This document shows, piece by piece, positions 8,942 through 62,330 of a stretch of DNA of 64,000 nt. Numbering within the stretch: the stretch's first letter is position 1; each line of letters starts with the position of its first letter. The notes under the pieces are model-generated. The model was not told where the DNA came from and made no database searches. It saw only the letters and a list, made by a program, of their open reading frames with translations. The stretch lies in NCBI RefSeq assembly GCF_003602005.1, contig NZ_QZWD01000015.1, positions 1 to 64,000 of the forward strand. The letters run 5' to 3'. The position numbers were made by a program, and so were the translations under genes. This DNA comes from Salinisphaera sp. Q1T1-3. GTDB lineage: Bacteria; Pseudomonadota; Gammaproteobacteria; Nevskiales; Salinisphaeraceae.

Positions 8942-10837
8942 TCAGTTCGTCGTCTGGATCGCCTCGAGCAGCCGGGCCGCGTCAGGCGTGCCGATGCCCG
9001 TTGCGGGGTCGTAGCCGGTGCGGCTCTGCCAGAACCAGTTGCTGCCGGCGGTCACATCCCGGAAGGGGCTGTTCGTCGCGTAGCCGGTGTCACGCAGTGC
9101 CCGATAGAGGATCGGGTTGAGAAGGCCCAGGCGAGCCTCGGTGGCCTGATTGAACAAGGCTGCCATCCCGGCCAACTGCGGCGCCACATAACTGGTGCCC
9201 CCGCCACCGCTGGTCATGCCGCCGTCGAGGGTCACGTACGCGGTGTAACCCGTATAGGGATCGGCGTTCATCGAGATATCCGGTACATTGCGTCCGGCGA
9301 ATCCACCGGGCAAGGCGCCGTAGAAGATCAGACTGTCGAAGTCGACCAGTGCCTGGTTGTAAGGCGTCTTGCGGATACCGTCCACGCCCTGTTGATAGAA
9401 CGGCACGGGAAACAGGCTGCTCACGCCGCCACCGCCGCCTTCAGGAAAGATGCCGAAGTCTGCCGGTGTGGCCGCGCCGCATAACTGCGAAAGTGCCGAG
9501 AAGTAGGACAGCGACCAGGCCTGCTCGGCATTCACCCGAACCGGTACGACATCGCCGGGGTTGCGAGCACAGCGATAGCGGGCGCTGAACGGCAGCGTCG
9601 TGCCCCCGGCGGCGGTCACATAGGGTGAGGCGGCCGGCAGGTCGACGGAGGCCACCTTGGCGATCGTCGGATAGGCCAGAGACGGATTGCGCTGGTCGTT
9701 GACGTCGTAACCGCCGGCATCGCCGGCCGCGACGAAGGTGGAAATGCCCTGGGCCGCGGCTTCCATCAACAGTTGGTTCAGAGCCTGTGCCGAGGCATCG
9801 GCGCCGGTGCCGAAAACCGAGGGCAGGGAGCCGACTTCGCTGATACCCCAGCTATAGGACAGCACATCGACGTCGTTGTCCGAGACGATCCGGTTGAACA
9901 GAGCCAGCTCGCCACTGTCCGTGTTCGGGGCGACGTATACACGGATATCCGCCTGCGGCGCCAGCCCACCCGACTGCTCCACGTCCAGCGTGGTTTCGCC
10001 GGTACCGGCGTCATCACCGTACTCGCCGCCACCGGCGACCGCGATCTGTGTGATGCGATCCGGCTTGGTTTCCAGCCCGATGCGCTGCCAATAGGTTTCG
10101 GCATCCGAGGGCAGAAAGCTCGCATAGGTGGCGATGCCGATGGTCACGCCCTCGCCTCGCAGGCCCTGCCGGTACAACGGCGCGACGTTATACAGCCGGG
10201 CGACGTCCTGGACCGTCAGCTCGCCCGGCTCGTTCGACGTGTCCAGGTCTGCCCGAAAGCGCCCGCCCCGGCCCTCGACGTGTGCTGCATGACGAACGTC
10301 GGTTGCCATCGAGCGGGCGTGACGTTGATTGCTCAGCCCGGCCACAGCCAGCACATGACTGTCGCTGAAGGCGGCCGGCAGCGACGGCGCCCGAGCCGGC
10401 TTGTAGAACGGCATCGATGGGCTGTCCGTATCCGGCGCGGCATAGTTGGCGATCTCGACATTGAAGGCTTGTTCGACGCTGGCGGCCGGTCCCGAGAACT
10501 GAACCGCCAGCCCGTTCTCGTACCGTTTGGTCACGGTGAGCCCGTTGGCCCGGGCATAGTCGATGACACGGGCGATGTCCTGTGCTGTCGCGCCAAAGCG
10601 CTGGCGGAAATCGGTGGTGCTCAGAAAGTGATGATAGTGCGGCCCCGGCGTCGAGACCTCGCGGACGAATCGTGCCAGGCCAGCCTCATCCCGGGCCTGG
10701 AATAGCACGGTCGTGCTGATCGCTTGATCGGCAGCCACGGGGCCGATCCGCTCAGCATCGGCAAATGCCGAAACCGATGTGCAGGCCACTATTGCCGCAA
10801 CGAGTACCCGCGATCCCCTGATTGTGGTCGATAGCAT
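8942..10837 (-). CDS. Secreted S53 family peptidase (sedolisin / pro-kumamolisin)
   Basis: A 631-residue exported serine-carboxyl endopeptidase. ATG 10837 follows a strong AGGGGGA ribosome site and gives a classical signal peptide (SRVLVAAIVACTSVSAFADA). Then comes a pro-domain (about residues 35-170: PGPHYHHFLSTTDFRQRFG, the propeptide activation fold) and the catalytic domain. Catalytic residues are visible as Glu281 and Asp285 (ETTLDVEQ), Asp373 in the oxyanion loop (AAGDAGG) and Ser549 in GGGGTSYVAP. The family is typically acid-active and self-activating. It has no linked partner and is read away from an AT-rich upstream region. No C-terminal sorting signal was seen. Confidence 0.92.
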   Translation of the reverse strand: MLSTTIRGSRVLVAAIVACTSVSAFADAERIGPVAADQAISTTVLFQARDEAGLARFVREVSTPGPHYHHFLSTTDFRQRFGATAQDIARVIDYARANGLTVTKRYENGLAVQFSGPAASVEQAFNVEIANYAAPDTDSPSMPFYKPARAPSLPAAFSDSHVLAVAGLSNQRHARSMATDVRHAAHVEGRGGRFRADLDTSNEPGELTVQDVARLYNVAPLYRQGLRGEGVTIGIATYASFLPSDAETYWQRIGLETKPDRITQIAVAGGGEYGDDAGTGETTLDVEQSGGLAPQADIRVYVAPNTDSGELALFNRIVSDNDVDVLSYSWGISEVGSLPSVFGTGADASAQALNQLLMEAAAQGISTFVAAGDAGGYDVNDQRNPSLAYPTIAKVASVDLPAASPYVTAAGGTTLPFSARYRCARNPGDVVPVRVNAEQAWSLSYFSALSQLCGAATPADFGIFPEGGGGGVSSLFPVPFYQQGVDGIRKTPYNQALVDFDSLIFYGALPGGFAGRNVPDISMNADPYTGYTAYVTLDGGMTSGGGGTSYVAPQLAGMAALFNQATEARLGLLNPILYRALRDTGYATNSPFRDVTAGSNWFWQSRTGYDPATGIGTPDAARLLEAIQTTN

Positions 10838-11360
10838 GTGTTCCCCCTGAGAACGTTGATGAAAACCGTGGCTGATCCACGATTCCACAGGACGGTGGCA
10901 AGAATCGCTCCATTCCGGCTGCCGAGCCGCCTGTAATTCACCTGGGCCGCTGGTCTTGGTGTTGATCCTGAATACAAGTCTTTTGTCATCAGTGGTTTTC
11001 CTTCGCGACGCGCCTCGGTGCCCTGTTCCTGGCGTGGCTTGTCTCGACGATCTGCTCGCAATAGCCACCGAGGCTGCCTCTTTTTGAGGCGCTAATCTGT
11101 ATCATGTGGCAGATATGGGGCATTCTGTTGCAAGTTTGATAATTTTTAATATGTAATAATTTCCGACGGTCGAATTTACGGCATGGATACCGCTCTGATC
11201 GTAAGATTTTGATTCCGCTTCGACTCGTGATGGATGAAATGTTTTTCACTCGGTCTGGCCTGTCAGAATAATCGACAGATGGGGCTTGATCGGGCTTTTT
11301 TTGCACCAGGGAAGTGCTTTTCTTTTTCGGCTCTTCGAAGTCACTGATTCATGGCGCTTC
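10838..11360. other. AT-rich intergenic region between divergent secreted-protein genes
   Basis: About 520 bp that is clearly poorer in GC than its surroundings, especially 11090-11340, with a TTTTTAATATGTAATAATTT stretch near 11145. It separates the minus-strand sedolisin from the plus-strand PEP-CTERM gene. An ORF of 105 codons crosses it on the minus strand, but its codon use (AT-rich third positions, many Ile, Arg, Ser, Lys) is unlike the neighbouring genes, so it is not called. Promoters for the sedolisin are expected here. Confidence 0.5.
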
Positions 11361-11375
11361 TGGCACCGGTATTGC
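11361..11375 (+). promoter_or_regulatory. Sigma-54 (RpoN) type promoter for the PEP-CTERM gene
   Basis: TGGCACCGGTATTGC matches the sigma-54 consensus TGGCAC-N5-TTGC with exactly ten bases between the invariant GG and GC. It lies 88 bp before ATG 11463, in the sense orientation. PEP-CTERM genes in several proteobacteria are known to be driven by RpoN with the PrsK/PrsR two-component pair, so the location is functionally sensible. Confidence 0.65.
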
Positions 11376-11462
11376 GTTCCGTAGGCACAGGGGGTGTCGC
11401 GGCGATCGTGTGCGATCGATCGGCTTCGATGCCGTTTTAACGTCGGGAGAGGTCAGGGATTC

Positions 11463-12227
11463 ATGGATATGAAACGATCGGTACATTGGAAAACCATCGG
11501 CATCGGCATACTGTTGGGGCTGGGGGCTCTGATGGCGGACACGGCATCGGCGAGCTTTCTCGCTTTCGGTCAGTCGGATCAGGTGGCACAGCGGGGGCAG
11601 CTGACGTACGGCGGTGGGTCGCGGCCGTTGTTCGGTTCGCTGATCGGGTTCGACAGCATCACTCTGGAAGGTGCCGATGCGCCCGACGGGCACGCCGATT
11701 CACTGGCCTGCTTCGGCTGTGCGCTGACGTTCAACACTGGCTTTCGGCGCGACGCCAGCTCCGGGACATGGGATTTCGACGCGCTGGGCAGTAATTTCCA
11801 GATCACCGGGGACGCGTATGCCACCGGGGCCGATGGGACACTGGCCGATACACCGATCGCCTCCGGCGTACTGTGGTCGAGCGTGTTCGACGGGCCGCAA
11901 CAGCTGGCACTGAGTGGTACCGGCTTCGGTGATGACGTGCGCTTCACCGGCAGCGGGTCGGGACAGCAGGACAGTGAACTGCTGAACTACTTCGGCTTGG
12001 GCGACGATCTGGACGCCATGTTCGAAACCTTTCTCTCGGGCACGATCGGCGGCCTGACCGACAACGGCGGATTCCTGGCGCTCGTCGATGGGGCACGCGC
12101 CCATACCGCCGTGACCAACGATGTGCCGGAGCCGGCCGGTTGGGCTGTGCTCGCACTCGGCCTCATCTTGCTGCTGATCGGCTGGCAATCCCGGCAGTCG
12201 ACAGGCCGGGCAGCCGTCGGCGGTTGA
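11463..12227 (+). CDS. PEP-CTERM sorting domain protein
   Basis: An exported protein of 254 residues. It has an N-terminal signal peptide (WKTIGIGILLGLGALMADTASA), a Gly/Ser/Asp/Thr-rich body with no catalytic motif that I recognise, and a C-terminal sorting signal made of VPEP (residues about 221-224), a hydrophobic helix (AGWAVLALGLILLLIGW) and a basic tail (QSRQSTGR). This tripartite signal is the target of the exosortase EpsH/XrtA, which implies an exopolysaccharide-linked surface or matrix role. No exosortase is in the window. ATG 11463 follows AGGTCAGGGA; ATG 11469 is a possible alternative. Confidence 0.85.
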   Translation: MDMKRSVHWKTIGIGILLGLGALMADTASASFLAFGQSDQVAQRGQLTYGGGSRPLFGSLIGFDSITLEGADAPDGHADSLACFGCALTFNTGFRRDASSGTWDFDALGSNFQITGDAYATGADGTLADTPIASGVLWSSVFDGPQQLALSGTGFGDDVRFTGSGSGQQDSELLNYFGLGDDLDAMFETFLSGTIGGLTDNGGFLALVDGARAHTAVTNDVPEPAGWAVLALGLILLLIGWQSRQSTGRAAVGG

Positions 12228-12269
12228 AAAAAATCGGGCCGGCCTGCGCTCCCGCGTCGCCGGCCCGAT
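12227..12269 (-). terminator. Rho-independent terminator of the AEC transporter gene
   Basis: On the minus strand ATCGGGCCGGC pairs with GCCGGCCCGAT across 15 bases, followed by a run of seven T. It lies 28 bp after the AEC stop codon and also touches the end of the convergent PEP-CTERM gene. Confidence 0.8.
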
Positions 12270-12296
12270 GGCCGGGCGCCGGCGGCGTCGCAGCGT

Positions 12297-13244
12297 TCAG
12301 ATCAAGCCGGCCATGCGTAGTGCAAAGACACCGAGCGTCATGGTCAGACTGGCGGCCAGGGTGGTCAACGCGACGATATTGGCCGCCAGCCGGGCGTCGC
12401 CGCCCATCGCCTCGACCATGATGAAGCTCGACGCCGCCGTCGGGCAGGCGAAGTAGAGGAACATCAGCCCGAGCTCGCGCGGGGCGAAGCCCAGCCACCA
12501 GCCGCCGGCCACCGCAAGTGTCGGAAGCACGAGCATCTTGACGACGCTGGCCGAGACCGCGATCCCGCGGGCGTCGTAGAGCGCGCGCACCGACAATGCG
12601 CCGCCGATGCAGATCAACGCGAGCGGCAGGGTCAGCTGTGCGAAATATTGGCCGGACGTCATGATCCACTGAGGCATCGGTAGCCCGGAGGCCGCCACCG
12701 CTATCGAGGCAACCGTGGCCAGAATGAGCGGATTGGTTGCCACGCCTCGCCCGATCGAGCGCCAGTCGGCGCTCTGGTCCGGCTGATACCAGGTGAGCAC
12801 GATCACCGAGAGCACGTTATAGATCAGGATGACCTCGCCGACGAGCACGCTCCCGGCGGACAGCCCGAAATTCCCGTACATGTTCTGGGCGAGGGCCAGG
12901 CCCATGATGCCGCAGTTGCCGCGAAACGCGCCCTGTGTGTAGACCCCGCGCTGGGCGATCGGTACGCGCCACAGGGCCCAGGCCCATATCGCCAGGAATG
13001 ACACCAGCGTCGCACCGCCGAAATAAGCCAGCATGCCGGGGCGCAGCGCGTCGCCGAGATCGGCACCGACGATCGAGACAAAGATCAATGCCGGCATGCT
13101 GCCCTTGAACACGATGGTCGAGGCGGCCGAGACGAAACGATCGTCGATCCAGTTCGCATGCCGCATGGCGATGCCGATGAAGACCAGCGTGAATACGGGC
13201 AGGGTGACGTCCAGCGTCTGGACGAAAATGGCGGTCAGATTCAT
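12297..13244 (-). CDS. AEC-family transporter (auxin efflux carrier type)
   Basis: Inner-membrane carrier of 315 residues with about ten hydrophobic segments arranged as two five-helix repeats; GAFRGNCGIMGLALAQNMYG and CPTAASSFIMVEAMGGD are the discontinuous-helix signatures of the AEC/BASS-like fold. Members export or import organic acids such as malate or malonate in bacteria; the substrate here is unknown. Start ATG 13244 begins at MNLTAIFVQTLDVTLPVF, the usual family N-terminus; an upstream in-frame extension to 13313 is not hydrophobic and is discarded. It is divergent from fdhD across 200 bp. Confidence 0.85.
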   Translation of the reverse strand: MNLTAIFVQTLDVTLPVFTLVFIGIAMRHANWIDDRFVSAASTIVFKGSMPALIFVSIVGADLGDALRPGMLAYFGGATLVSFLAIWAWALWRVPIAQRGVYTQGAFRGNCGIMGLALAQNMYGNFGLSAGSVLVGEVILIYNVLSVIVLTWYQPDQSADWRSIGRGVATNPLILATVASIAVAASGLPMPQWIMTSGQYFAQLTLPLALICIGGALSVRALYDARGIAVSASVVKMLVLPTLAVAGGWWLGFAPRELGLMFLYFACPTAASSFIMVEAMGGDARLAANIVALTTLAASLTMTLGVFALRMAGLI

Positions 13245-61544: not shown

Positions 61545-62330
61545 TCAGTCGCGGCGCCGGGCGGCACGGAACCGGGCCGCGGCGTCGCCGAAGGCTGCGA
61601 ACATCGCCATCGAGACCGGATGCGCGGCGTAGCGCCATTCCGGATGCCACTGCACGCCGAAAACGAACGTGGCGTGCGCGTGCCGGGCGGCTTCGACCAG
61701 CCCGTCGGGCGCATGGGCTTCGGCGATCAGTGGCTCGCCGAGCCGATCGATGCCCTGGCCGTGGAGCGAATTGACACGGATGGTCGTTGCCTCGGCCCAG
61801 CCGGCGAGCCAGCCGTCGGCCGCCAGATCGAGGTCGTGCACATCGGCATAGCGTGTCTCTCGCGGTGCGTCCGGTGCATCGCGATGATCGGCCAGTCCGG
61901 GCACTTCATGGACCGCGCCATGCAGGGTGCCGCCGCAGGCGACGTTGAGCTCCTGGAAGCCGCGGCACACCGCCAGTATCGGCATGTCGCGCGCGAGCGC
62001 GGCGCCGATCAGCGCCAGCGTGTTGTCGTCGCGCTGTGCGTCGGCCGCTCCGCGCTGGGCATCGCGGCTGTGATAACGCCATGGCGCCATGTTCGAGGCA
62101 CTGCCGGTGAGAAACAGACCGTCCATGTCCGCGAGCAGGTCGGCGGCGCTGATCATCTCGCGCAGGTCGGCCAGCTCGGCGCCCGGCGCCCGTGCTGGCA
62201 GGATCAGTGGCACGCCCTTTGCTGCGTGCGCGACGGCCGCGAGATATTTCTCGCCGACGACATGACTGGGGTCGGTCCCGATCGGCTTGCAGTCGGCCGG
62301 CACGCCGATTCGGGGGCGCTGTGCGGGCAT
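61545..62330 (-). CDS. puuD: Gamma-glutamyl-GABA hydrolase PuuD
   Basis: A 261-residue class-I glutamine-amidotransferase-like hydrolase that releases GABA from gamma-glutamyl-GABA, the last step of the Puu pathway. Nucleophile Cys122 is in AVCRGFQELN; His229 and Glu231 are in VQWHPEW. Start ATG 62330 is decided by a strong AAAGGAG ribosome site six bases upstream; an in-frame ATG at 62348 would have none. Divergent from ald and close to puuA and puuB. Confidence 0.9.
   Translation of the reverse strand: MPAQRPRIGVPADCKPIGTDPSHVVGEKYLAAVAHAAKGVPLILPARAPGAELADLREMISAADLLADMDGLFLTGSASNMAPWRYHSRDAQRGAADAQRDDNTLALIGAALARDMPILAVCRGFQELNVACGGTLHGAVHEVPGLADHRDAPDAPRETRYADVHDLDLAADGWLAGWAEATTIRVNSLHGQGIDRLGEPLIAEAHAPDGLVEAARHAHATFVFGVQWHPEWRYAAHPVSMAMFAAFGDAAARFRAARRRD

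Follow-up and report, generated by a model that had tools for sequence, protein, structure and literature searches.

A PEP-CTERM protein gene behind a sigma-54 promoter core in Salinisphaera, and its likely control by PrsR

In a 64,000-nucleotide stretch of DNA from Salinisphaera sp. Q1T1-3 (the window), the gene for a protein with a PEP-CTERM tail lies behind a sigma-54 promoter core, and the same genome carries an XrtA exosortase together with PrsK, PrsR and PrsT. We think it probable that the gene encodes an exported XrtA substrate that would be transcribed from this core, with phosphorylated PrsR as the most likely activator. It most likely represents a typical member of the known exosortase system, though a somewhat divergent one. 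The locus is organized as follows.

10838..11462, + strand: 625 non-coding bases separating the PEP-CTERM gene from a divergent S53-type peptidase gene
11289..11305, + strand: possible degenerate PrsR box ATCGGGCTTTTTTTGCA, exceeding GTCGRNWWWYCTTACA by one base, with its end 55 bases upstream of the -24 T
11302..11318, + strand: NtrC-type palindrome TGCACCAGGGAAGTGCT, agreeing with TGCACN7GTGCA at 9/10 positions and overlapping the 11289..11305 box
11361..11375, + strand: sigma-54 (-24/-12) promoter core, TGGCAC-N5-TTGC, in a genome that has an RpoN gene
11463..12227, + strand: PEP-CTERM protein gene, an ORF of 254 aa
11463..11555, + strand: signal-peptide-like N terminus (MKR, a hydrophobic stretch and an ASA-S cleavage-like site, judged by eye)
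11556..12122, + strand: mature body with a CxxC motif (C83, C86), mostly beta strands in the structure model
12123..12224, + strand: PEP-CTERM sorting signal VPEPAGWAVLALGLILLLIGWQSRQSTGRAAVGG, with the helix but without a basic cluster directly after it

The core that the earlier note had described, TGGCAC-N5-TTGC with correct GG-N10-GC spacing, can be read directly from TGGCACCGGTATTGC at 11361-11375 of the forward strand: GG (11362-11363) and GC (11374-11375) are separated by 10 bases, and 87 bases lie between the end of the core and the ATG at 11463. Such spacing with TGGCAC and TTGC, in a genome that encodes RpoN and enhancer-binding activators, is what is expected of a sigma-54 promoter, and the core spacing predicts a transcription start near 11387; sigma-54 transcripts are expected to begin 11-12 bases past the GC. 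A match to the strict pattern TGGCAYN5TTGC within any given 150 bases is rare. The genome (59 contigs, 3.87 Mb, 99.97% complete) contains 18 matches versus 9 for a control pattern read backwards, and about half of the matches may be due to chance. By a home-made score, whose consensus and weights we chose ourselves, the window core reaches 25, a value attained in 8 of 2728 150-base stretches from the same genome, true sites included. Among the 3 of the 18 strict matches that were inspected, two precede genes with PEP-CTERM tails, namely the window site and C54:97616, which is upstream of a PEP-CTERM gene at C54:98355. A second strict match in the window (TGGCAC-N5-TTGC, 62208-62222) falls inside an ORF on the opposite strand, ~234 bases ahead of the start of a likely alanine dehydrogenase gene (named by eye), and probably arose by chance.

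At the N terminus of the protein, the hydrophobic stretch has a hydropathy of 2.13 over 15 residues, and A30 at the cleavage-like site is invariant in all 11 family sequences. The C terminus, DVPEPAGWAVLALGLILLLIGWQSRQSTGRAAVGG, contains VPEP and a hydrophobic helix. The VPEP tail noted earlier is there, though as a sorting signal it falls below both the Pfam and the TIGR cut-offs: PF07589 gives the tail 14.7 bits versus a cut-off of 20.7, and a genome search with this profile had 11 matches that did not include the gene; TIGR02595, also searched genome-wide, gives 14.7 bits versus 16. We nevertheless regard the VPEP tail as supported because the ten homologues end in VPEP (nine) or VPEV (one). 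The window protein is a divergent member of this family. It has 2 basic residues among its last 15, where every one of the ten relatives has a cluster of 3, and it lacks the RR or RRR that follows the helix in all of them.

The body of the protein had been reported as not recognized. This holds for curated families, as nothing in Pfam or NCBIfam scored above cut-off, but not overall. On the evidence of sequence comparison, the body belongs to a genus-restricted family and is not an orphan. Across 85 genomes of the order, a protein search gave matches in 7, all within the genus (7 of its 14 members, the source genome included); the 71 genomes outside the genus gave none. Ten homologous ORFs occur in six congeners, with 27-34% identity to the window protein over the alignment. 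These ten are not independent because L078/L079 and L083/L085 are near copies. In a second scan, of a genome-contig collection, the single protein found no relative and an alignment-based search found six loci; the named records with relatives were Salinisphaera halophila, S. orenii, S. hydrothermalis and a Salinisphaera MAG. All eleven sequences share the CxxC motif, and ten of the eleven have VPEP (L081 has VPEV). Among described families, NF038129, a PEP-CTERM family, shows weak similarity to both body and tail (E 0.00029), and 8 of the 11 sequences reach E 0.01 or better against it; at 20.7 bits versus a cut-off of 65, the window protein falls outside it.

A sequence search for relatives with a solved structure returned none up to E 1. 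The structure model, built from seven sequences (mean pLDDT 74.6), is built mostly of beta strands, and a C-terminal helix covers the sorting signal. Foldseek found nothing for it at E 0.001 or better, and the best of 998 chains in a fold comparison, a small cyclase (Z 7.4, rmsd 4.1 over 126 residues), may reflect only a common arrangement. The model suggests a beta-rich, barrel-like fold, and we draw no function from these weak matches. As a separate observation, the CxxC of this family, whose members are predicted to be exported and sorted (window 11463-12224), is a candidate disulphide or metal site.

The earlier note saw no exosortase in the window and proposed a search for xrtA, prsK and prsR in the genome; absence of an exosortase or of rpoN would have told against its reading. 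The sole genome match to PF09721 is indeed on another contig and is XrtA (289 bits versus a cut-off of 208). The other genes were all found, with PrsT in addition: PrsK (630 bits versus 300) and PrsR (666 versus 502.6) are in tandem at C22:112798-116237, and PrsT scores 391 bits versus 312. RpoN has one match (444 bits versus 277). XrtA, PrsK, PrsR and PrsT form one exopolysaccharide cluster. Among the selected ORFs scanned, PrsK/PrsR are followed by PrsT, an XrtA-system chain-length protein, an XrtA-associated ATPase-like protein (282 bits versus a cut-off of 324.5), two glycosyltransferases (one above cut-off, the other just under), XrtA and an amidotransferase.

The earlier note also proposed testing all PEP-CTERM genes for the same promoter. 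With TIGR02595, seven PEP-CTERM genes of the genome score above cut-off; the window gene scores below it. We count these as eight (window, L031 and L034-L039), each of whose ORFs carries a PEP tail, and leave out a further eight hits that were weaker, with E from 0.447 to 7.2. Within 200 bases of the ATG, six of the eight (window, L034, L036, L037, L038 and L039) have a GG-N10-GC core scoring 22.5-26, where 22.5 is reached in 12 of 638 window stretches of 200 bases; L035 and L031 have neither a sigma-54 core nor a PrsR box. Upstream of five of the six core genes is a putative PrsR box, GTCGRNWWWYCTTACA, with 50-62 bases between its end and the core. This box agrees with motif 1 of Haft et al. 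(2006), compared by way of its text description there: 17 bases ending in TTTACA, with a spacer of 62.8 (SD 10.6) (PMC1569441). A motif 1 matrix trained only on congener sites scores the five box genes at 15.4-21.4, the window gene at 5.0, L035 at 4.5 and L031 at 2.6; among 3260 control stretches, true sites included, 1.4% reach 10 and 26% reach 5.0. A combined motif-1-plus-core pattern has four genome matches, all ahead of PEP-CTERM genes, but these four genes were the ones used to build it, and when reversed as a control it matched at seven places. The sequences indicate that the published regulatory arrangement of PEP-CTERM genes is present in Salinisphaera, and they supply a putative PrsR box for the genus. 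The eight genes (five whose box is clear, one whose box is altered, and two lacking core and box alike) also form a small test set for gene-by-gene dependence on PrsR.

The small PEP-CTERM gene L031 (14127-14669; G000:C22:110126-110668) is itself located ~2 kb upstream of prsK, with another ORF between, and its tail, VPEPAAWAV, resembles VPEPAGWAV of the window protein.

In every one of the ten homologues, some GG-N10-GC core occurs no more than 200 bases from the ATG. In eight it scores 22 or more, a level reached by 22 of 638 window stretches; the cores of L081 and L082 score only 20.5, which 115 of the 638 reach. Seven of the ten have motif 1 at 18.6 or more, six of these seven sites having trained the matrix. 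In L077-L082, 94-98 bases separate the end of motif 1 from the core, slightly beyond the published maximum of 92 (PMC1569441); in the five genes of the source genome this distance is 50-62. L080 and L082 have two copies of motif 1 each.

At the window gene, the known PrsK/PrsR arrangement that had been proposed is represented by the sigma-54 core and the gene set, but published motif 1 is absent in its standard form. The best standard candidate, at the 5.0 that over a quarter of the control stretches attain, was rejected. The possible degenerate box ATCGGGCTTTTTTTGCA scores 4.99 ungapped, a value equaled at 4.1% of 1722 window positions and in 10.6% of 5000 shuffles. With one extra base allowed it scores 12.5, as do 1.2% of 500 shuffles and 0 of 655 other window positions. 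The published distance between motif 1 and motif 2 is 32-92 bases (PMC1569441), and the one-base-longer form is at 55. Because standard motif 1 is absent, the PrsR link for the window gene depends on this longer box. PrsR control of this gene appears likely.

The overlapping palindrome at 11302-11318 raises a different possibility, that the core is real but that its activator is NtrC, not PrsR, so that nitrogen shortage switches the gene on. The palindrome departs at one position from the NtrC-type consensus TGCACN7GTGCA. Palindromes this good number 8 in 222,009 bases, the window site and glnA included, and appear in 19 of 5000 shuffles; none of 17 other PEP-CTERM upstream regions examined reaches 9/10 (best 8). 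The glnA promoter of this genome (glnA identified by eye from the protein start) has a 10/10 palindrome near its TGGCACGGAACCTGC core, and the glnA region contains genes for an NtrC-like regulator and a kinase. Yet the window palindrome was spotted by eye, post hoc, and the rate in the 222,009 bases translates into a chance expectation of ~0.9% per 250 bases. The window has no more copies of GCACN7GTGC than chance predicts (3 versus 3.0), palindrome plus core has 4 genome matches versus 3 in the control, and the exact palindrome occurs at 5 genome places versus 4 for its control, with only glnA looking, by eye, like a target. We consider activation by NtrC unlikely, and PrsR the likelier activator of the two. 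An evolutionary variant, in which the substrate left the PrsK/PrsR regulon by keeping its core while an NtrC site replaced the PrsR box in place, strikes us as improbable; if true, such a switch would tie a surface protein to nitrogen shortage. In the glnA promoter (L101 8275-8317; G000:C2:108274-108316), the exact palindrome is 25 bases from the TGGCAC-type core, and the regulator and kinase genes lie downstream.

Alternatively, the core could be a relic or a chance match, with the gene either transcribed from a sigma-70 promoter near 11243-11272 or poorly expressed, and with upstream box and tail decaying together. Two overlapping sigma-70-like sites do occur at 11243-11272, where 0.5 would be expected in the 1501 bases scanned, and both the missing standard PrsR box and the tail scores under cut-off would fit such decay. 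Against this, the -24/-12 core is among the best (its score being that of 8/2728 stretches), the gene keeps an uninterrupted reading frame, its GC3 of 0.76 compares with 0.77-0.86 in five other window genes, and many residues conserved in the family are retained. We judge decay of this kind to have little probability.

In the PrsR-dependent mechanism that we favor, the -24/-12 core at 11361-11375 would be bound by sigma-54 RNA polymerase. Opening of the promoter would fall to an NtrC-type activator acting from a site ~55 bases upstream, most likely PrsR phosphorylated upon activation by PrsK. The protein would be exported through Sec and parked in the inner membrane by its C-terminal helix; XrtA would cut at VPEP, and the protein would then reach the cell surface or the exopolysaccharide matrix, where it may have a role.

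This arrangement resembles the XrtA/PEP-CTERM system with PrsK/PrsR/PrsT described by Haft et al. (2006) in that a single gene stands behind a long non-coding region, the complete gene set and a PEP-CTERM tail are present, and the distance from core to ATG (87 bases) is close to the published mean of 71 (SD 38.5) between motif 2 and start codon; it differs in lacking standard motif 1 and in having a tail under the curated cut-offs (PMC1569441). A second relevant case is PepA of Aquincola tertiaricarbonis, a PEP-CTERM gene that has the same TGGCAC -24 box as the window gene and depends on RpoN1 (PMC9850573); RpoN use is predicted for the window gene. The PepA model NF033554 matches one of the 11 family members, weakly (best E 0.0035), and, unlike in the PepA case, the window gene and prsT are on different contigs. 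In the library searched, no paper combines "Salinisphaera" and "PEP-CTERM."

PEP-CTERM genes typically have long upstream regions (PMC1569441), and the region at 10838..11462 has a GC content of 0.52 versus 0.66 across the window. An Rfam scan of 10830-12400 found no family at the gathering threshold. Of seven flanking proteins, none was found by tblastn in 16 homologue loci (partly overlapping places with flanks of ~1.5 kb per side in ten and 6 kb in six). The 3' neighbor of the PEP-CTERM gene is on the opposite strand. On the 5' side, the divergent gene at 8942-10837 (- strand) encodes a secreted pro-kumamolisin (S53-type) peptidase, and the 625-base upstream region is common to both genes.
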